A DNA stretch of 64,000 bases from NCBI GenBank assembly GCA_021810105.1, contig JAJZJM010000002.1, positions 62,001 to 126,000 on the forward strand, in the 5' to 3' direction. The notes under the pieces are model-generated. The model was not told the origin of the DNA, ran no database searches, and was given only the letters and a program-made list of their open reading frames with translations. The number at the start of each line of letters is the position of its first letter. Position 1 is the first letter of the stretch. The stretch comes from Microcaldota archaeon (GTDB lineage Archaea > Micrarchaeota > Micrarchaeia > Micrarchaeales > Micrarchaeaceae). Positions 1,777 to 55,901 of the stretch are shown one piece after another. The position numbers were made by a program, and so were the translations under genes.

Positions 1777-2088
1777 CTAACCAGCAAGGCTTATCTCTAT
1801 CTGGACCGTGTCAGGAACAGGTATTCTCATTATCTGCCTTAGGGCCTGTTCGCTTCCATCTATCTCGAGAAGCCTTTTATGGAACCTTATCTGCCACTTC
1901 TCATATGTATGGCTTCCTTGATGCGCAGGTGCTTTCCTTGTTGACTGGCTTATTATCTTTGTAGGAAGAGGTATGGGGCCCTTGCACTTTATGTTGGCCC
2001 CCTGAACTATACTCTTTATCTGGCTTGCTACAGAGTCCACGTCCTTCTTGTTTGTGCTTACTAGCTTTATTATTGCGGTTCCTGCCAT
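1777..2088 (-). CDS. rps10: 30S ribosomal protein S10
   Basis: Sequence KLVSTNKKDVDSVASQIKSIVQ...GPIPLPTK...HEKWQIRFHKR-like S10 pattern; directly downstream of EF-1alpha, as in many archaea. Confidence 0.93.
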   Translation of the reverse strand: MAGTAIIKLVSTNKKDVDSVASQIKSIVQGANIKCKGPIPLPTKIISQSTRKAPAHQGSHTYEKWQIRFHKRLLEIDGSEQALRQIMRIPVPDTVQIEISLAG

Positions 2089-2100
2089 CTATTCACTCCA

Positions 2101-3369
2101 TCATTTTACAGGAGTGACATCCAGTATGATGCCTGCACCTATTGTCTCTCCCATATCACGTATGGCGAACCTTCCGAGCGGCTTGAAGTCGCTGAACTTC
2201 TCCAAAGACACGGGTTTTGTGGGCTTTATCTTTACTATTGCCACGTCTCCGGTCTTTATTGTCTGAGGGTTCTGCTCTACAGTCTGGCCAGTCTTCGGAT
2301 CCTTTCTTTCGAGTATGTCAGTGAATGTGCATGCTATCTGTGCAGTATGTATGTGGAAGACTGGGGTATATCCTCTTGCTATGACATTCTGGTGGTGCAG
2401 AACCACTACCTGAGCCTTAAATTCTGATGCCACCGTAGGAGGATTGCTTGCGGGGCCTACCACGTCTCCCCTCTTTATGTCCTTCTTCTCTATTCCTTTT
2501 ACATTGAAGCCTATGTTGTCTCCAGGCTCTGCCCTCTGCAGTTGCTGGTGGTGCATCTCTATGCTTTTGACTTCGGTCTTTACGCCTCCAGGCATTATTA
2601 TAACCTGGTCTCCGGCCTTTAGTATTCCGCTCTCTATCCTTCCTACAGGCACTGTTCCGAATCCAGATATGCTGAATACGTCCTGTATTGGCAATCTAAG
2701 AGGCTTGTCTGTTGGTTTTTCCGGTACCTTGAGCAGATCCAATGCCTCAAGAAGGCTTGGGCCTGTATACCATGGAGTCTTTGCAGATTTCGTCTTTACA
2801 TTGCTGCCCTCTATGGCAGAGTACGGTATAAAGTTAACCTGATCCAGCTTGAAGCCGAACGACTTTAGCAGGTCTCCTACAGATTTCTTTACGTCCTCAT
2901 ATTTCTGCTGCGAGAATTCTACTTCGTCCATTTTGTTTACTCCGACTATTACCTGACCTACGCCAAGTACGCTTATAAGTATTGCGTGCTCCCTTGTCTG
3001 AGCCTGTATTCCGTCCTTTGCGCTGACTACCAAGACTGCCGCATCTGCCTGGCTTGCTCCAGTTATCATATTCTTTACGAAGTCCCTGTGGCCAGGTGCG
3101 TCTATTATAGTAAAGTAGTATTTTGCTGTCTGGAAATCCCTGTGCTGTATGTCTATAGTGATTCCACGTTCACGCTCTTCCTTTAGCGTGTCCATAACGA
3201 ATGCGAATTCGAAAGTAGGCTTGTTTACCTTAGCCGCCTCTTCCTTGTACCTTGCCATATCTCTGTCAGTTATCGCCCCTGTTTCGTAGAGGAGCCTTCC
3301 AACTGTCGTAGACTTTCCGTGGTCTACGTGACCTATAAAGATCAAATTCATGTGTGGTTTTTCTGCCAT
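2101..3369 (-). CDS. tuf: Translation elongation factor EF-1 alpha
   Basis: [38 protein letters not shown] motifs. Confidence 0.98.
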
Positions 3370-3621
3370 AGTTTCACCTAAATCAATATAAATGCCTATT
3401 TTCTGTCGAGGAATAAGCAGTATGTTTCTGTAGAAAACTAATAAAAACCTATGCCTTTTAAGCGGGAAATAAAATTACGCCCAAAATCTCTTAATTTAAC
3501 AATGCGACTAAACCGCATTTGCCTGTTTTAGAGTTTTGCGCGGGAGCCTAATTTATAGAAAGGTTTTTATAACAATTTGTTCATATCAGACGTGCCGCTA
3601 AAGCGGTAGAACGGTGACTTG

Positions 3622-6149: not shown

Positions 6150-6330
6150 GTGACATCCTCCCACCACTGAAGGTGGTGGGCTTCCAATGACGGTTTTTTG
6201 ATTGGTCATCTTGAACCACCAAGTATAGTTCCTGATTCACCGACGGCTGCCTCCTGTAGTTGAGGTCTTACAACGTCTCCAGAGGCGTTACTTCCCGCAT
6301 GTCCTGCGGTAGTCAGGATATTTATTGAGG
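6150..6330 (-). ncRNA. Candidate TnpB omega RNA (reRNA) at the right end, extent approximate
   Basis: Position (3' end of tnpB plus right-end hairpin) matches known TnpB systems; minus-strand RE ...cccaccaccttcagtggtgggaggatgtcac followed by flank ccaccagaatattgatgaag as putative guide. Confidence 0.45.
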
Positions 6331-7480
6331 CATTCAAATCTCTGTCAATCTTCAGTCCACAATTTTGACAGAGATATGTCCTTTCACTCAATCCTATATC
6401 CTGTATGTTTCCACATTTACTGCATGTCCTTGTTGTGTTCCTTGGGTTCACGCCGACAACCCTGCAACCAGCACTTTCAGCCTTGTAACAAAGATATTGG
6501 GTGAAATTGCCCCAAGAAGCATCCGTTATCTGTCTTGCAAGATTATGGTTCTTTGCCATGTTTGCAATCTTCAGTTCCTCGTATGCAATGGATGAGTATG
6601 AATTTACAAGACGATATGAGGTCTTGTGAAGAAAGTCGTCCCTCTGCCTTGCGATATGTTCCGATATCCTTGCAAGTTTTATCTTTGCCTTTCTCCTATT
6701 CTTGCCCCCTTTCTTCTTGTTTGAGAGCCTTCTCTGGATTGTTTTCAGTTTGTCGATGGATTTATTCGAGATTCTCGGATTTGGGATTCTTGTTCCATCA
6801 GACAAAGTTGCATATTCCTTTAGTCCCAAGTCCATCCCTACTTGTGGTTTATTGTTTGAGAAGAGAGAGGTATCTTCCTTTTCAGTGGAAAATGTGATAT
6901 ACCATTCCTGCGATTTTGTCTGTTTTATCGCCATTGTTTTTATCTTTCCTTCCATATCTCTGTGGTTGACAAAGTTTATCCTGCCGATTTTTGAAACGGA
7001 AACCATTTTCTTTTCGAGTTTGAAACCAGATTGTGGGTATGTCAATGAAGAGATGTATGATTTGAAACGTGGGAAACCTCCCTTGACTTTCTTTCCCTGT
7101 TTTCTTTCCTTTATCCTTCTGAAGAAGTTCTTGTATGCCCCTGAGACTCTGTCCGCGACATTCTGGCAGACTTGGGAATATAGTTCATTGAATTCTGGGT
7201 TCTTCTTTTTGAGTTTTGTAATCCACTTGTTCATGTCGTATTTCGTGAAGGTCTTTCCTGTTTCCTTGAAGTATTTTTGTGATTGTTCAAGAAGGAGGTT
7301 GTAGAGTTGTTTCGATAGATACATCTGACGGTTGAGTGTTGATTTCTGCGACTGCGACGGATATGCCCTGTATTTGTACGTCTTTTTCAAGATGAACATA
7401 TCCTTTTCACCATTAAATCTTATATGTGTTGCGGTTCGCTTTCATCCCACGATTGAAATCGTGGGTTTTCCCGCTCACAT
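6157..7480 (-). mobile_element. IS200/IS605 superfamily, tnpB-only (IS1341-type) element; boundaries approximate (+/- about 7 nt)
   Basis: Intact tnpB without tnpA; terminal hairpin cccaccactgaaggtggtggg at the right end (about 6160-6180) and cccacgattgaaatcgtggg at the left end (about 7446-7465); splits a small gene. Confidence 0.8.
6206..7399 (-). CDS. tnpB: RNA-guided endonuclease TnpB (OrfB), apparently intact
   Basis: RuvC-like GMDLGLKEYATLSDG, YEELKIANM, CSKCGN...CQNCGLKIDRDLNASINIL zinc finger and final Asp. Confidence 0.95.
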   Translation of the reverse strand: MFILKKTYKYRAYPSQSQKSTLNRQMYLSKQLYNLLLEQSQKYFKETGKTFTKYDMNKWITKLKKKNPEFNELYSQVCQNVADRVSGAYKNFFRRIKERKQGKKVKGGFPRFKSYISSLTYPQSGFKLEKKMVSVSKIGRINFVNHRDMEGKIKTMAIKQTKSQEWYITFSTEKEDTSLFSNNKPQVGMDLGLKEYATLSDGTRIPNPRISNKSIDKLKTIQRRLSNKKKGGKNRRKAKIKLARISEHIARQRDDFLHKTSYRLVNSYSSIAYEELKIANMAKNHNLARQITDASWGNFTQYLCYKAESAGCRVVGVNPRNTTRTCSKCGNIQDIGLSERTYLCQNCGLKIDRDLNASINILTTAGHAGSNASGDVVRPQLQEAAVGESGTILGGSR

Positions 7481-7742
7481 TTATAATCGGAATATTCTTC
7501 TTTTTCTTTATAATTAGGTGGTGGCTGTTCGGAGGGTCCTGCCAATTTCCATTTTATTCCGGGAGAAGGAGATACAGGCATAATGGAGACGCGTACTATA
7601 TACTGAAAGAGAGGTACGCGAAAGGAGAGATATCAAAAAAAGAGTATGAAGAGAGAATGAAAGGTCTTGATGAATATTAAGTTGCTGAATGCTGCGAATT
7701 GTTGCAGTATGTTTTTAATCCTTCATGGCAATCTATTTGCAA

Positions 7743-7859
7743 GGAGGGGTAGCTCAGCCTGGTTAGAGCGCTAGACTCATATGCTAAGCATTATGAGTGA
7801 AGAGCTATGTGCTATGACGAGAAATCTAGAGATCGCGAGTTCAAATCTCGCCCCCTCCA
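7743..7859 (+). tRNA. tRNA with CAU anticodon (Met or Ile2), containing an intron of about 42 nt in the anticodon loop
   Basis: Acceptor GGAGGGG/CCCCTCC, anticodon stem CTAGA/TCTAG with loop CTCATA^A, T-arm GCGAG-TTCAAAT-CTCGC; intron tgctaagcattatgagtgaagagctatgtgctatgacgagaa. Confidence 0.9.
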
Positions 7860-7905
7860 AGTCCATGCTGCGATGCCCAATGGCTTCGGTGTTTGGAAAA
7901 CAGAA

Positions 7906-8478
7906 CTAATATAGAAGCAGTACAACCAAATCTTCGAAAAAATAATGCTTTTTAAATAAGAGCTGGGCGCCTTTTGTTGCAATATCTTTCTCGTAATGGT
8001 TATGTCCGCTTTCGAGGAGCAGAGCTATGCCACCCTTATCAAGAAAACCCTTGTACTTTTCCAGAAACGATTCTATAAGCTCCCTGCCCTCTTTGCCGCC
8101 ATCAAGCGCCCTTTGGATCTTGTTTTCTTTCATGCTTTGTATCGGCTTTGATGGGAGATATGGAGGATTGAATATTATGGCATCAAACGCACCGGTTATG
8201 TTTGAGAACATGTCGCTCTTCAAGAATCTGCCGTTTACTCCGTTTGTCTTAGCATTCTCTTCCGCGCACTTTATCGCTTCAGTGTCAATATCTGAGAAAG
8301 TCACATCGCACCCTTTCTTTGCAGCTACAATGCCCTGTATGCCAGAACCAGTCCCGAGATCGAGGACCTTTCCGCGGGTATGCTTCTCTACAGCTTCCGC
8401 CAATAAAAAAGAGTCCTCCCTGGGAAAATAGACGTCGTTTTTGCACTTCAGCGTGAGTGTATCCGCAATCAATCCCAT
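7906..8478 (-). CDS. HemK/PrmC-family class I methyltransferase (Mtq2-like)
   Basis: VLDLGTGSGIQGIVAAKKG and catalytic NPPYLPSKP motif. Confidence 0.9.
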   Translation of the reverse strand: MGLIADTLTLKCKNDVYFPREDSFLLAEAVEKHTRGKVLDLGTGSGIQGIVAAKKGCDVTFSDIDTEAIKCAEENAKTNGVNGRFLKSDMFSNITGAFDAIIFNPPYLPSKPIQSMKENKIQRALDGGKEGRELIESFLEKYKGFLDKGGIALLLESGHNHYEKDIATKGAQLLFKKHYFFEDLVVLLLY

Positions 8479-49104: not shown

Positions 49105-50652
49105 CTAAAAAACTGGGCCGTACCTCTTATCGTTCTTTGATGCCATGCCGAAATAATGCATTACTGTAGGTTGCACATTATATACATACAGCTTTTTTCT
49201 GGCTATTTTGCTGCAATCGATTTTATTGCCGTATGAGACCACTCCGAAAATTCCGTTTCTTAGATGATCGCCTGATTTTGGCATCTCCGGCTCCATAAAC
49301 AGGTTGCCGTCCTTAAGGAATCCAAAAGACTCTAGAAGATATCCCTCTTCGGCCTGCGCCATTATGTCAGGGGCTATGAAAAGTTTTGTTCCTTCATAAT
49401 ATTCATCTCCATCCCAGACATTTATTATCAGGGGCTTGCCTTTTTCGTCCTTAATATTCATCAGGTCGCGCATTATTCTTTTTTTAAGCGCCAGCTTCTC
49501 AGCTGCTTTTACTGATCCATGGGTAAACCTGCCATCATTTATGTATATGGTAGTCACAGGGCAGTTCGCTATGTTTGCAAACGCTTTTGTTTTTGACATT
49601 TCATAGTCGAAATCGTGTATCCTGTTGTAATTTACGCCGGATGTTCCGGATAATGAATTTGCGAGTATTGCGCGCGCCATCCTTTTACCCACGCGGGGCA
49701 GCTTATCGTATATGGCTTTCCTTGAGCCGCTTCTGTGGACTGATCGGAGTATCTGCTCCCTTAGCTTATACTTGATCGCCATCCCCTGGCTTCTCTCGTT
49801 TAAACCTTCCTCTATCTCTTTTTTGAATTTTGAATATCCCTCTTTCATTAGCCAGCCGTTCATGAGAAACATTTTCTTTATTGGCTGGGCTCCGTGATCT
49901 GATATAACCATCACTGTGGCGCCCTCTTTTTTGGCGCGGCGTTCTGTCCACTTTAGAAACTTCGATATCTCTTCATAGAGCGGCACAACGCAGCTTGCCC
50001 AGTTCTTTTTATTCAATGAGAAGTGCTGCATTCTGTCAGTTTCTGTGAAACAGATAAATGACAGGTTATAATCATTTGCATCCATAAGATCCTTGCTGAC
50101 TTCTGCCCTTTTCCTTATCCCTTCTTTGTATATATTTGAGGCTTCCTCTATTGGAAGCTCACCATTTTTCATTTCCGCTTCTATCTCAGGCTCTCCTTTG
50201 AAATCATGCCTATCTGCAGCCTCTTTTATAGAATTAGAGCTGAACTTGGGCGGCAACGGGAAGCCAGTTATCATGTCTATATTCCTGCTTGTGGGAGTCC
50301 TTACAAGCATTGCTGGAGTCATCACAAGACTTCGAAACCCTTTTTGCGCAATGCTTTCCCAAAAAGGAGGCTTTATGCCTGGATCGTAATAAACTACGGA
50401 TCTTGTATAGTCCGGCTCCATTTTAAGGAACTCTGGCACGCCGTGCTGCCCTGGCCTGAAACCCGTATATATGCTCGGCCATGAAGGGCCAGTCATTGGA
50501 GGCAAAGTGGACTCCATGTCTATAAGCGCACCTTCCTTCATTATCTCTGAAAAACCTTCCAGATCTGCTTTTTTTAGATAATTGCGGATTATCCATAAAG
50601 GCGCTGCGTCTATTCCTATGATGTATAATTTTCTATCTTTTTCTGCAGGCAT
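49105..50652 (-). CDS. Alkaline phosphatase superfamily / type I phosphodiesterase-nucleotide pyrophosphatase
   Basis: IIGIDAAPLWII...LPPMTGPSWPSIYTGFRPGQHGV...VMVISDHGAQP. Confidence 0.9.
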   Translation of the reverse strand: MPAEKDRKLYIIGIDAAPLWIIRNYLKKADLEGFSEIMKEGALIDMESTLPPMTGPSWPSIYTGFRPGQHGVPEFLKMEPDYTRSVVYYDPGIKPPFWESIAQKGFRSLVMTPAMLVRTPTSRNIDMITGFPLPPKFSSNSIKEAADRHDFKGEPEIEAEMKNGELPIEEASNIYKEGIRKRAEVSKDLMDANDYNLSFICFTETDRMQHFSLNKKNWASCVVPLYEEISKFLKWTERRAKKEGATVMVISDHGAQPIKKMFLMNGWLMKEGYSKFKKEIEEGLNERSQGMAIKYKLREQILRSVHRSGSRKAIYDKLPRVGKRMARAILANSLSGTSGVNYNRIHDFDYEMSKTKAFANIANCPVTTIYINDGRFTHGSVKAAEKLALKKRIMRDLMNIKDEKGKPLIINVWDGDEYYEGTKLFIAPDIMAQAEEGYLLESFGFLKDGNLFMEPEMPKSGDHLRNGIFGVVSYGNKIDCSKIARKKLYVYNVQPTVMHYFGMASKNDKRYGPVF

Positions 50653-50739
50653 CCAATACCACTACTCATAGCCCAATATTCTTATTTAGACTTTAGACTA
50701 TAGTGTTTTCTCCTGCTTAAAAAGATTGCTATACCTTTG

Positions 50740-51435
50740 CTAACGCTTGCTTCTGGTACTTACTCCTATCATATGAAATTCGTTGTCATAACCTATGGCT
50801 GCCTTAAACGCATCAGGCTCCATAGTTACGGTTATGTCAGAATATGGATCGTTTATATAGAAAGTATCCTTGTCGTATCCCTTCACTACGACCCAATGCG
50901 GAGAAGACTCAAGCTCTGGGTTTATTGATTTTGCATCTATAACAACAATAGGTATCTTTCCGCTGTTCAGAGCTTTCTTTATAGTATTTATGCTCGCCTT
51001 ACCGTACATCTCCTTGACCTTTAGTGTGCGTGCCTTTTCCTTTACCTCATTGAATGATGCGGTTAGCGTGTCAAGGTTTATTCCCTCGTATACTGCAAGC
51101 CTTTTTTCGTAGCCTTCGTCCTTTACGTCACTTACAATTTCGGTTTTTGCTCCTCTCTGCGCCAGTGCGTATGCGAGTCCGTATCTTGAACCGTACCAGA
51201 CGCTGCCTGCGACTGCCTGCTGCCATATCTTATATTCTGTATCTTTAGACATTTGCATCTTTTTGTTGATATGCTTTAGCACCATCATTGCACATGCTGC
51301 CGAACTTGTAAACCTCTCAGTCTGAGCATAATTAGGAATGTCAAACATTTTAGATTCCCTTTGTCTTGGCCCGTGTTTTGATGCTAATCTGCTGTTTTTT
51401 GGTTTTTTGTTTGTTGTTTTTCTGTTCATTTTCAC
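50740..51435 (-). CDS. C39-like peptidase-fold protein, probable catalytic Cys lost
   Basis: FDIPNYAQTERFTSSAACAMMVLKHI and SSPHWVVVKGYDKDTFYINDPYSD. Confidence 0.7.
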   Translation of the reverse strand: MKMNRKTTNKKPKNSRLASKHGPRQRESKMFDIPNYAQTERFTSSAACAMMVLKHINKKMQMSKDTEYKIWQQAVAGSVWYGSRYGLAYALAQRGAKTEIVSDVKDEGYEKRLAVYEGINLDTLTASFNEVKEKARTLKVKEMYGKASINTIKKALNSGKIPIVVIDAKSINPELESSPHWVVVKGYDKDTFYINDPYSDITVTMEPDAFKAAIGYDNEFHMIGVSTRSKR

Positions 51436-51450
51436 ACCTTTAAAATAAGA

Positions 51451-51549
51451 TGCAGGGAGGGAGATTTGTTCGCAATTGATTGAACTCCCGCAGGCCTAAG
51501 CCAACGGATCTTGAGTCCGTCGCGTTTGACCAAGCTCCGCCATCCCTGC
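51451..51549 (-). tRNA. tRNA-Leu (CAA) with 14-nt insertion (candidate noncanonical intron) in the T-loop at 51466-51479
   Basis: Acceptor GCAGGGA/TCCCTGC, anticodon arm ACGGA-CTCAAGA-TCCGT, long variable arm GGCTTAGGCC, T-stem GGGAG/CTCCC with 21-nt loop TTCAA-tcaattgcgaacaa-AT. Confidence 0.9.
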
Positions 51550-51727
51550 ACCTTTATCTTTTGTTCATAATATAAATAATTCTTTGCATCTGCATTCTCA
51601 CATTGCAACTAATGCTATTGATTGCTGGAGATATTTAAAGGTTCCCGCTCTTTTTAAGATAGCTTTATAAAGGTATTGTTATAACAGTAATGCTTTAAGA
51701 TTTGTACGCGAGGAATAAAACCTGCTG

Positions 51728-51883
51728 TTGTCATGTGGAAGAACTCTTAAAGTAACAGAAGTAAGAGAGAGGCGCAGAAACCATTTCCGTTATGTTGAGT
51801 GCTGTGGAAATGTGCAACATAAAGGAATAGAATTTTCTGGATTGAGGCATCGACCACTTCAGAGGATAACTTCAAATGGCTAA
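51728..51883 (+). CDS. Possible short zinc-ribbon/Ogr-like protein or its remnant (TTG start; not in ORF track)
   Basis: Frame reads SCGRTLKVTEVRERRRNHFRYVECCGNVQHKGIEFSGLRHRPLQRITSNG*; TATA-like ctttataaag upstream. Confidence 0.3.
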   Translation: MSCGRTLKVTEVRERRRNHFRYVECCGNVQHKGIEFSGLRHRPLQRITSNG

Positions 51884-51887
51884 ACTG

Positions 51888-52820
51888 TTAGCATTTTCTT
51901 AAAATCCTTACCCTGTGCATCTGACACTTAGAGAAATTATTTTCTATCATATTAAACATATGCTGTCTTAACTCTATTGCATGGCCAACGCCATTGATTG
52001 ATATTACCCTTTTATATATCCTAAGTGACTTGATAAAGTTATCTGCCATGTACAGGTTCCTAAAAGATTCAACATAAGTGTTTATCTTGTTTATCTTATA
52101 TTTCTTATAGAAAGGGTATGGCGTATGTAAGTTCACCTCTTTTGCAAGTAATTTAATAATCGGCTCTTTTGCTATATATTTATTAACCAGTCCCTGCATG
52201 GAAAAGTCTATACATTTAGAGATACTTCCTAATTTATATTTTCTCTGCAATGAATCAAGCAGATTTCTATACTGATAAAGTGGACGTTGGTTATAGACGA
52301 AATCTGATATAATATTGTTTTTTGACAGTTCGTAAGCATCTGTTGCAGAGAGTTTTAGAACTCTGTTTGCGTTATAAGCCGCAGTTATGTAAAAGAAAAG
52401 AAATAGTTCAATGCCATCGTCCATTTTAAGGTAAAAGTTGACTAGGTCTCTGAGAGGTGCATCAGAAAACCCGATTTTTATGCTGTGCATCTTTGCAAGA
52501 TAAAATGGCCATTCTATATCGTCATTATATGATGCCTGATTACGGTTCATCCTTGAATCTATACTCCTTCTTGAAATGTCCATAGGCTGCTCTAATAAGA
52601 CCATTTCTGGTTTAACTCTATCAAAAAGATCCGATACAAAATCGCGGAATGCTTGGTCCCTTTTAGTATGCATTGATGGAACCATGACAAATAATCTATT
52701 CGAAAACGTATATGAGATGGTGTTATCCTGTATTCCTTTCTTTATTTCTGCGATTCTTTCATTATCCAAGCTGCAAATCTCTTCGTATAATTTTTTAATA
52801 GAAGACATTTTCTTTGCCAT
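51888..52820 (-). CDS. TraB/Tiki (EreA/ChaN-fold)-like protein, candidate peptidase
   Basis: FVMVPSMHTKRDQAFRDFVSDLFDRVKPEMVLLEQP and C-terminal ISINGVGHAIELRQHM (GxxH) resemble TraB/Tiki motifs. Confidence 0.6.
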   Translation of the reverse strand: MAKKMSSIKKLYEEICSLDNERIAEIKKGIQDNTISYTFSNRLFVMVPSMHTKRDQAFRDFVSDLFDRVKPEMVLLEQPMDISRRSIDSRMNRNQASYNDDIEWPFYLAKMHSIKIGFSDAPLRDLVNFYLKMDDGIELFLFFYITAAYNANRVLKLSATDAYELSKNNIISDFVYNQRPLYQYRNLLDSLQRKYKLGSISKCIDFSMQGLVNKYIAKEPIIKLLAKEVNLHTPYPFYKKYKINKINTYVESFRNLYMADNFIKSLRIYKRVISINGVGHAIELRQHMFNMIENNFSKCQMHRVRILRKC

Positions 52821-52824
52821 TACC

Positions 52825-53814
52825 TTACCTTAACTTTATTTTCTCAACTTCTACAGTCTCCTTTCTCAAAAGGTTTATATTGCATTGTCTTCCACTTTCA
52901 TTTTTTACGAAATTTAGATGTTTAAACCTTTCCCCTGATTTTGACCAAATTTCTTCCCATGACTCCTTGAAAAGGTTACCCATTACCAATGTGCGTATCG
53001 TAACGCACGGAGTAACCGAACCATCAACAAAGACACCTGCTCTGAATAATCCGGCTGTGCAGGTCTTAAAACCGTAACTCTCTGACAGTGGAGGTTTTCC
53101 GTTAGAGCAACTACTTTCTTCTACCACGCCCTTTACCTTTACGTCTTCTCTGTTCATATCTTTAGTTAGCTTGATTGCATTTTCACGTATATTGAGCATT
53201 TCAGGAAGTTCAAGTTTCATGTCAAACCATCTCTTGCCCAAAATAAAAGTCGGTTGAAGTGTTTCAAGATTGAACATTCTCAGTGCCTTATATTTTGAAA
53301 GTGCATACTCCTCAGTCTTCAATACGTCATTGCGATTTGCATTTGTAAGAATGAGCCCTATAGAGAAAGGTATTTTATTTTTTTCTAGAACATCTAGGCC
53401 AGCAAGCGTCCTTTCTGTGAGACCTCTTGTAGCGTCATTAACTTTCGAATCTGCACTATCTATTGAAACTTGTATAGATAGCCCTTTTGTGACCTGCTCT
53501 TTTAACTTCAGAAGTTTCTCTTCTCCCATTGATGAAAGCAACGTTCCGTTTGTGCTTATCCCTACAGTGTGATTAAAAGTTTTAAGCGCAAGTTCTATTA
53601 TTTCTAATATATCATTCCTTAAAAATGGCTCGCCACCTAACAGAATAACTTCGAATGGAGCAGCCTCCTTTTGCGTCTTATCAAAAAGGTAAGCTAGATT
53701 CTGGAATGGTGGTGTTATATTGGTAAATGGTTGGGCATAGCAATAATGACAACGAAGATTGCATATATGATTTACTTCAAATTCAATTCTAAAAGGATAG
53801 CTAGGTAAAATCAT
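52825..53814 (-). CDS. Radical SAM enzyme with SPASM/twitch-like C-terminus
   Basis: FEVNHICNLRCHYCYAQP (CxxxCxxC), ILLGGEPFLRNDI; C-terminal CTAGLFRAGVFVDGSVTPCVTIRTLVMGNLFKESWEEIWS...GRQC. Confidence 0.92.
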   Translation of the reverse strand: MILPSYPFRIEFEVNHICNLRCHYCYAQPFTNITPPFQNLAYLFDKTQKEAAPFEVILLGGEPFLRNDILEIIELALKTFNHTVGISTNGTLLSSMGEEKLLKLKEQVTKGLSIQVSIDSADSKVNDATRGLTERTLAGLDVLEKNKIPFSIGLILTNANRNDVLKTEEYALSKYKALRMFNLETLQPTFILGKRWFDMKLELPEMLNIRENAIKLTKDMNREDVKVKGVVEESSCSNGKPPLSESYGFKTCTAGLFRAGVFVDGSVTPCVTIRTLVMGNLFKESWEEIWSKSGERFKHLNFVKNESGRQCNINLLRKETVEVEKIKLR

Positions 53815-53824
53815 CTAAAACACT

Positions 53825-54307
53825 TTATGCTTTGATATTCAATTGTTCCAGTACTGCTTGCTGATTTTCTGATAGTGTTTCTGATGGTTCTTCAATCATT
53901 TCTCTTAATAGCCATATTACTGTGTTATTGACTAAGAATATTTCTCTGGTCTCTACGTTCTTTACGAAACCATAGTCTTCAGTATCTTTGCGTATTTTGA
54001 TAAGATCAGCTAGTTTCTGCTCTGCCGTTTTTCTAACTGACAAATCTTCTCTTTTTTCAGCATTTTTTTCACTATCTCGGGCAATAGTTTTTGGCTGATG
54101 AATACTCATATCCGTATATTTTACATTATCGTAAACCTTATCTGCCCAATCACCATCTTTATCATTCCAATTTGTATCTCCCCACCATATGTCATTATGC
54201 CAAGCTTGTTTTGCCCTTGTAAATTCCTGATCTGCCGATCGTGCATATAGACGTATGCTTATTTCTCCTTTTGTAGGGCATTCCTTTGTTGTTTTTTCCA
54301 TTTCCAT
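53825..54307 (-). CDS. Candidate radical-SAM peptide substrate/precursor with repeated aromatic-X-Asp/Asn motifs
   Basis: AWHNDIWWGDTNWNDKDGDWADKVYDNVKYTD; sits directly upstream of the radical SAM gene with a 10-nt gap. Confidence 0.6.
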   Translation of the reverse strand: MEMEKTTKECPTKGEISIRLYARSADQEFTRAKQAWHNDIWWGDTNWNDKDGDWADKVYDNVKYTDMSIHQPKTIARDSEKNAEKREDLSVRKTAEQKLADLIKIRKDTEDYGFVKNVETREIFLVNNTVIWLLREMIEEPSETLSENQQAVLEQLNIKA

Positions 54308-54358
54308 TGTTTCGCCGTTTATTTTTTTTATTTTACAAATGTATGTAGACTGTTAATT

Positions 54359-54378
54359 TTGCTCAATATTGCTCAATA
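54359..54378. repeat. Perfect tandem 10-bp repeat (TTGCTCAATA x2) in the promoter region of the radical SAM cassette
   Basis: ttgctcaatattgctcaata, about 52 bp upstream of the 54307 start codon, next to a TATATA sequence. Confidence 0.8.
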
Positions 54379-54684
54379 TATATGCGTGCTCGTGATATCT
54401 ATTGAGAGTGACCTTCCTGCAGTATGCTTCGTCGTGCGAGTTGTTTGCATTGTTTTGTGTCTGAGCGCTGGCTGCTTTCTTCTTGCTACCTTTGTCCTTA
54501 TGAGCAACGCCTTATAGCAGCTTGCGCAAGAAAGTCTTCTTTCTACAGGCATGCTGCCAGTAAGGAATGCCGATGAGGGCAGCACGATCTTTACTTCGCC
54601 TCTGCCGAGCTCTTTTTCGCATACAGCACATTTCGCTATTCCTCCGGCTACACTATATCGAGTACCTAGTTCTGCAACGTTCAT
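54373..54684 (-). CDS. Small zinc-ribbon-like protein
   Basis: CAVCEKELGRGE...LSCASCYKALL; basic C-terminus. Confidence 0.6.
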   Translation of the reverse strand: MNVAELGTRYSVAGGIAKCAVCEKELGRGEVKIVLPSSAFLTGSMPVERRLSCASCYKALLIRTKVARRKQPALRHKTMQTTRTTKHTAGRSLSIDITSTHIY

Positions 54685-54818
54685 ATCCCATACCCATCCT
54701 TGACAACCTCGCGGCGTCTATCCCTTCCTTTCCCCTCCCTTGAATAGATTTTCATTTTTCAGATATTTATACTTTATTGATTTTGCTGAAAAGCGGAAGT
54801 GAGCCACACGTATGCTTC

Positions 54819-55901
54819 TTAATGCGATCCGCCAACTAGCGAGACCATCTCATTTATCCCAGCATTGGTTTTGATTCCATCCGGGTCGAAATGCGTGTAT
54901 GTGGCAACATAACCCCTCGCCTTGAGTTTTTCTATGATTGATGCTGGGCTGACAGATGGTATTTTTTGAGATTTTGTTATTACTGGAATAGAATAGAAAA
55001 AGGGCGTATCATACTCTTCCCCAATCCTTTTCATCATAGCCACTTCACTCTTTTCCTGTATGTTGTTTTCAAAATATCTTATCAGGTTTGCAGCATCTTT
55101 CTTATTGCATAGACTTCCAAGCCACATTCTTCCCGACACCTTTGCCTTACTTCCGCAGTTGCCGCATTTGGTTTGGCTGTACTGAATGCCAATGTAGCTG
55201 CTTCTCCACTTACATGACTCACAGTAAACAGCATAGCCGCACTTGCCTATAGATTCTAGTGCGCTCTTGCTTCCATGCACGAGCTTTATGAATATCCTGA
55301 AGTAATGTGCCTGAAAAACCGCAATGCTAACCTCTATGCCGAAATTGAACTGTGCGGCTATGCCTATTATGTAGTTTATAAGTATCCTTATGCCTGCTTC
55401 ATGGCACAGCTCGTTGTGGAGAGGGATTGCGCCATATAGCCTTACGCATGCCTCTTTATGCGCGCCGCATAGCACTGCGGTGTCTGTTGCAGTAAGCATA
55501 AGATAGGTGCCGCCTTTAGCGATCTTCATTGCATCATATACGTAAGGGTGCAGGCCGCCAAATGGGTCTATGTCTATGAAGTCAAATTTCTCTTCTGATG
55601 AATTAGAAAACTCTTGAAAGGAGGTTTTCAGGATTTTGGGCTTAACATCGTTTAGAGAGGCATTCGCCTTTATTGCCCTTACAGCGGAGGGATTCATATC
55701 CAATATTGTTACCTCATTTGCTTTTGATTCAAGCATGTACCTTATGCCGCGTATCCCCGTTCCTCCGGTAGCATCCAGCACCTTGCTGTTTTTATTTGCT
55801 TTCGCCTGCATGAATCCTACGCTAAGGTCGCGGATGAATTTTGCCTTTGAGTTTAAAAACGCGGATTGTTGCCTTATTTTAGCCTTTCCCTCTCTGTACA
55901 G
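54819..55901 (-). CDS. trm1: tRNA (guanine26-N2)-dimethyltransferase Trm1; N-terminus extends upstream of the first ATG
   Basis: VLDATGGTGIRGIRYMLE, DIDPFGGLHPYVYDAMK, GPIPLHNELCHEAG-like region, CxxC zinc motifs; upstream in-frame YREGKAKIRQQSAFLNSKAKFIRDLSVGF matches the Trm1 N-terminal pattern. Confidence 0.9.
   Translation of the reverse strand: MYREGKAKIRQQSAFLNSKAKFIRDLSVGFMQAKANKNSKVLDATGGTGIRGIRYMLESKANEVTILDMNPSAVRAIKANASLNDVKPKILKTSFQEFSNSSEEKFDFIDIDPFGGLHPYVYDAMKIAKGGTYLMLTATDTAVLCGAHKEACVRLYGAIPLHNELCHEAGIRILINYIIGIAAQFNFGIEVSIAVFQAHYFRIFIKLVHGSKSALESIGKCGYAVYCESCKWRSSYIGIQYSQTKCGNCGSKAKVSGRMWLGSLCNKKDAANLIRYFENNIQEKSEVAMMKRIGEEYDTPFFYSIPVITKSQKIPSVSPASIIEKLKARGYVATYTHFDPDGIKTNAGINEMVSLVGGSH

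Follow-up and report, generated by a model that had tools for sequence, protein, structure and literature searches.

A three-gene cassette of Micrarchaeota and a probable new archaeal family of ring-bearing ribosomal peptides

A small, seemingly mobile cassette of three genes in the 0.82-Mb genome (five contigs) of a Micrarchaeota archaeon probably belongs to a new archaeal family that makes ribosomal peptides with rings. The gene content of the genome, which includes an archaeal-type Trm1, agrees with an archaeal origin. The cassette lies on the minus strand of the 64,000-nucleotide stretch of DNA analyzed here (hereafter the window) and encodes a precursor protein, P0001 (160 aa; 53825..54307), a radical SAM/SPASM enzyme, P0002 (329 aa; 52825..53814), and a TraB/Tiki-like putative peptidase, P0003 (310 aa; 51888..52820). 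The precursor is paired with the radical SAM (rSAM) gene, the spacing of its aromatic motifs is conserved, the peptidase-like gene is swapped among the relatives, and a sister species carries an empty site. Very likely P0001 and P0002 form a system in which a peptide undergoes some kind of rSAM modification. The more specific reading, a ribosomally made, post-translationally modified peptide (RiPP) whose rSAM enzyme would make repeated three-residue (i to i+2) cyclophanes, appears likely.

Translation of 53825-54307 (minus strand) confirmed six aromatic-x-D/N motifs in 31 residues of P0001, as the sequence-only reading of the window had described: W36-H-N, W42-G-D, W47-N-D, W54-A-D, Y59-D-N and Y64-T-D. 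This segment, from W36 to D66 (residues 36-66; 54110..54202, minus strand), is the core, and the motifs are the predicted crosslink sites. The fifth Trp of the core, W41, precedes W-G and is not a motif. When the core residues other than Trp and Tyr were permuted, D, N or Q was expected at position +2 of 2.0 of the seven Trp/Tyr residues, and was observed at six (p about 0.0012). The run of motifs is therefore beyond chance. Since relatives of P0001 directly adjoin an rSAM gene of the same kind at nine further loci, P0001 is a real gene. A known folded domain, which would speak against modification sites, was searched for in Pfam, NCBIfam and PDB sequences and none was found for P0001; no curated family of Pfam or NCBIfam covers the precursor. 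The single-sequence AlphaFold2 model of P0001 had a mean pLDDT of 35.6, too poor for reading fold or disorder.

When 295 genomes of the class were searched with the precursor as a single sequence, relatives turned up in four genomes besides that of the window. An rSAM profile (A1), built from six rSAMs and run on 302 genomes of the phylum, identified ten loci in eight genomes with E below 1e-100, three of the cassette copies being in one of these carriers. All ten rSAM loci adjoin a related precursor. The profile of the C-terminal domain of the precursor recovered these ten loci, with no further credible match in the 302 genomes; nine of the ten were contained in the profile, and the information that it adds is the absence elsewhere. 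Several weaker matches were set aside: a precursor match in G291 spans stop codons, a C-terminal-domain match in G198 belongs to a DNA-polymerase-like protein, and those in G279, G072, G028, G032 and G255 had E above 0.001 and lay in long open frames.

Comparison of the precursors showed a three-part architecture, in which a conserved N-terminal motif is followed by a variable core, and the C-terminus is a conserved domain of about 60 aa. The N-terminal motif, ISIRLYARSADQEF in the window (residues 16-29; 54221..54262, minus strand) and LIPYxRSAxQEF in its common form, is conserved better than any other part of the precursor (47% mean pairwise identity) and is a probable leader recognition element. 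The mean pairwise identity is 25% in the core and 32% in the C-terminal domain (residues 98-160; 53828..54016, minus strand), which is a candidate follower or docking domain. The core is thus variable while the N-terminal motif and the enzyme (41-53% identity of the cassette rSAMs to P0002) are conserved. The suggestion that the usual order of leader and core is inverted was wrong as stated, since the core sits between conserved blocks on both sides. By eye, the strand-strand-helix pattern of the C-terminal domain recalls the RiPP recognition elements (RRE), and no profile test agrees. The domain gave no Pfam match, no match to an RRE in PDB and an hhalign probability of 0.2% against PqqD/RRE, and PF05402 was not found in 41 relatives. 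The pattern is no evidence of RRE kinship.

The cores vary in length and composition, as seen in G270 (GWDDVWHDGSGTWDNNHPGWDNGGTPWGNYGDGWDN), G233 (AVWEQESWNQEAWDQGPKWVQESWDQN), G099 (AWDQSNPWHDQFGWTQSSSWHDGGGWTDQWRD), G141 (MWDNWDDVKPWDNDIAWDNVPW), G147 (VYEDWKDVYCMWGQ) and G210 (SWDNTWDNGSSYKDDTYVNSQYKD). In the cores of eight distinct precursors, one near-duplicate being excluded, the repeated aromatic-x-(N/D/other) pattern of triceptides is present and specific to one offset: D, N or Q occupies +2 of 37 of the 42 Trp/Tyr residues, compared with 10.8 +/- 2.7 expected. None of 20,000 shuffles reached 37, the maximum being 23. Both residues contribute (29/32 Trp and 8/10 Tyr), and the excess persists when the window core is excluded (31 observed vs 8.8 expected). 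At offsets -3, -2, -1, +1, +3 and +4 the D/N/Q fraction in the eight cores is just 12-38%. Two close G233 cassettes differ by two substitutions within the W/Q stretch (ES-W to EQ-W and WNQ to WTQ), and neither touches a motif residue. Thus the spacing of W/Y-x-D/N(/Q) is conserved in homologues and the intervening residues are variable, which is the pattern that the sequence-only reading had named as support. Of that reading, the proposal of repeated modification sites is well supported by these sequence comparisons, the spacing being kept and a peptide-type radical SAM/SPASM gene always following; its inverted order is the part that did not stand. One precursor counts against the cyclophane reading: that of the second cassette on contig 20 of G233 has no Trp and a single clear motif, YSN.

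In G210 (L024, contig 14, near 6400) the precursor has three Tyr motifs (YKD, YVN and YKD) and two WDN; an in-frame stop lies just upstream of its core, close to the contig end.

Proteins that bind other molecules can contain D/N-rich repeats with aromatic residues. The segment might accordingly be a Trp/Asp-rich stretch for binding of a metal, a glycan or a protein, with the rSAM enzyme acting on something else. The rSAM gene is, however, coupled to the precursor at 10/10 loci, no binding domain was found in Pfam or NCBIfam, and the core is variable between conserved flanks. We therefore regard this explanation as very improbable.

The gene of P0002 starts 10 bases past the precursor stop on the same strand, and an rSAM with SPASM or Twitch adjacent to the precursor, a feature of triceptides, was found at all ten loci. 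P0002, a predicted cyclophane synthase, has radical SAM (PF04055, E 8.6e-19) and SPASM (PF13186, E 1.8e-8) domains above the cutoffs. The CX3CX2C motif (C18, C22 and C25) and C252, C270 and C311 are invariant in ten sequences. We take C252 and C270 to match the C-x(9-15)-G-x4-C opening of the SPASM domain. The auxiliary cluster region has three invariant Cys only, fewer than a full SPASM, with the later cysteines down to one. All NCBIfam matches listed for P0002 were far below the cutoff (best 78 bits vs the 400-bit cutoff), and no curated model of NCBIfam places it in a described maturase family. Peptide maturases are among its partial matches (WgkB, ScmE, mycofactocin, PapB and DynA). Since P0002 is far below every NCBIfam cutoff, homology alone cannot give the reaction.

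It is worth considering, therefore, that the rSAM enzyme modifies W/Y-x-D/N by another reaction, such as formation of an aryl ether or a C-N link, hydroxylation, epimerisation or a beta-carbon change at Asp/Asn/Gln. SPASM enzymes catalyse many reactions, P0002 reaches no functional family cutoff, and the enzymes of darobactin and dynobactin form C-O and C-N links on Trp cores (PMC11002830). Epimerases and hydroxylases, however, would need no pair of an aromatic residue and D/N/Q two residues apart. That both are required, with D/N/Q exactly two positions after the aromatic residue, is the hallmark of an i, i+2 link, and another reaction is in our judgment improbable. Thioether chemistry is disfavoured because the cores are nearly free of Cys (none in eight of nine, one in the ninth), so that the core Cys required of sactipeptides and ranthipeptides is lacking.

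The cyclophane reading agrees best with the triceptides, among which OscB links Trp to Asn/Asp, XncB Trp to Asn/Arg and YxdB Tyr to Asp, each from i to i+2 (PMC11002830). As in the systems of XncB, OscB, MscB and YxdB (PMC11002830), a SPASM-type rSAM adjoins a precursor with repeated aromatic-x-N/D motifs, and Trp-x-Asn, Trp-x-Asp and Tyr-x-Asp, all known substrates of triceptide enzymes, are found in the motifs here. Unlike the triceptides, the present cassette is archaeal, its rSAM matched no curated family above cutoff and has only three invariant auxiliary Cys, and many WxQ units are present. Further differences are the length of the precursor, its three parts with the conserved C-terminal domain, and the TraB/Tiki or HExxH peptidase-like partner. 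The enzymes of darobactin and dynobactin (DarE and DynA) likewise make links on Trp-containing cores, and the DynA model matches P0002 weakly. Those products, however, are short cores that carry fused bicycles with C-O or C-N links (PMC11002830), whereas here there are many separate units bounded by motifs.

The third gene of the window cassette begins 4 bases after the P0002 gene. Its product, P0003, carries the motifs PSMH ... GVGH, which read GFMH ... GLGH in relatives; proteins of this TraB/Tiki-like group have GxxH close to the N-terminal end (as PSMH in the window) and GxGH close to the C-terminal end. The TraB_PrgY_gumN profile matched one P0003 relative at E 0.049, below the cutoff. 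The single-sequence AlphaFold2 model of P0003 had a pLDDT of 33.6. A gene of this type is found in the window, in the first cassette on contig 20 of G233, on contig 7 of G233 and in G206. In five other cassettes (G270, G141, G210, G147 and the second one of G233) the third gene encodes instead a protein with an invariant HExxH followed by an acidic E/D pair, with no Pfam family above cutoff. In the G099 cassette neither type of peptidase is adjacent. Thus nine of the ten cassettes have an adjacent putative peptidase, drawn from two unrelated families. The swapping of one putative peptidase for another in the same cassette supports a role in processing, short of proof, and P0003 is predicted to be a maturation protease.

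There is another possible interpretation of the third gene, namely that it is an immunity gene or an unrelated passenger and that the core is never excised; this would be compatible with crosslinking of the core. The slot holds two unrelated families, its orientation varies, G099 has nothing in it, and the membership in TraB is weak. Both fillers are nevertheless peptidase-like, with the invariant HExxH in one and the GxxH pair in the other, and the same two peptidase types occur in RiPP loci of CPR bacteria. We thus consider an immunity gene or passenger with an unexcised core rather unlikely.

In those CPR loci, which encode graspetides, a SPASM maturase is found with zincin and Tiki/TraB peptidases, proposed for leader cleavage or maturation (PMC8939145). 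The loci of ATP-grasp branches 1 and 2 (PMC8939145) resemble the present cassettes in coming from ultra-small, symbiont-type prokaryotes and in the same combination of maturase and peptidase. They are bacterial, however, and are defined by an ATP-grasp ligase, none of which was seen beside the cassettes examined here. In archaea, DPANN included, RiPP clusters with rSAM types among them have been predicted (PMC12144867, PMC10105419), to which the present cassettes are alike. Validated archaeal RiPPs are lanthipeptides only (PMC12144867), the characterised ones being haloarchaeal, and the named rSAM types (ranthipeptides and sactipeptides) use Cys, unlike the cores here. A search of open-licence papers for cyclophane RiPPs of archaea, DPANN or Micrarchaeota gave no description of this family, and a description in a subscription journal is possible. 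Crosslinked RiPPs characterised so far are mostly bacterial.

The limits of the cassette were examined by comparison with the sister species G087, which lacks the segment at approximately 51672..54379 as a unit. Identity is 83% in one aligned flank (window 50500-51671) and 78% in the other (54380-55900), with about 260 bases between them in G087 as compared with 2.7 kb in the window. The cassette was thus gained or lost as a unit. In further members of the genus the flanking genes are likewise close together and the cassette is absent. The three cassette genes have a G+C content of 35%, vs 43% for the window. No transporter or immunity gene common to the cassettes was found; this, like the lack of an adjacent peptidase in G099, counts against the cyclophane reading. 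The upstream ORF at 54373-54684 encodes an unrelated protein, is present at the empty site too, and was rejected as a cassette gene.

Beyond the other end of the cassette lies a gene for a C39-like peptidase (50740-51435, minus strand; DUF3335, E 3.7e-25), which follows a tRNA gene. It occurs in eight of nine genomes of the genus, with 70-91% identity in the seven others, and is not a cassette member because seven of its eight genomes are without the cassette. Neither ARAGORN nor Rfam detected the tRNA gene, for tRNA-Leu(CAA) (51449-51550, minus strand). The T-loop measures 21 nt where 7 are usual, with about 14 extra bases that are probably an unusual intron; when these were removed, ARAGORN read tRNA-Leu(caa). 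A similar insertion is present in G087.

On contig 20 of G233 (L008) two cassettes, at 2083-3602 and 6188-8402, lie about 2.6 kb apart in opposite orientation and with different third genes. Remote radical SAM relatives (27-29%) occur on two viral contigs of IMG/VR (L026 and L027). Searches of plasmids gave rSAMs at 26-33% and a search of phages one rSAM at 26%; matches of the precursor to phages were chance matches only.

According to the cyclophane reading, P0001 would be the precursor of a RiPP, and P0002 would recognise its conserved N-terminal motif, its conserved C-terminal domain or both. The enzyme would abstract a beta-hydrogen from Asp, Asn or Gln at i+2, and the i+2 carbon would then be joined to the aromatic ring of Trp/Tyr at i. 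The product would be a chain of cyclophanes, each of three residues, with as many as six in the peptide of the window. The cassette peptidase, TraB/Tiki-like here and HExxH zincin-like in relatives, may then excise the crosslinked core. The product may have a role in competition or cell-cell interaction. Gain or loss of the cassette as a unit between related archaea fits such a role, and the patchy presence, the variable cores and the processing gene suit it.

A further proposal is made tentatively, as a possibility that we would not yet favour. The cassettes may belong to a class of archaeal rSAM peptides that has so far gone undescribed, with an enzyme that modifies Trp-x-Gln too and is guided by the C-terminal domain of the substrate; the core would be placed between leader and follower. 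Exchangeable TraB/Tiki and zincin peptidases would release the stapled peptide, and this product would act in conflicts between ultra-small archaea and their hosts, or in the attachment of one to the other.

If the cyclophane reading is true, this chemistry would be extended to archaea by a compact cassette of precursor, enzyme and peptidase in a 0.8-Mb archaeon, with an enzyme that apparently accepts many WxD/N/Q and YxD/N sites within one substrate. It would also open an initial route to a peptide with which archaea of this kind may affect their neighbours or hosts.
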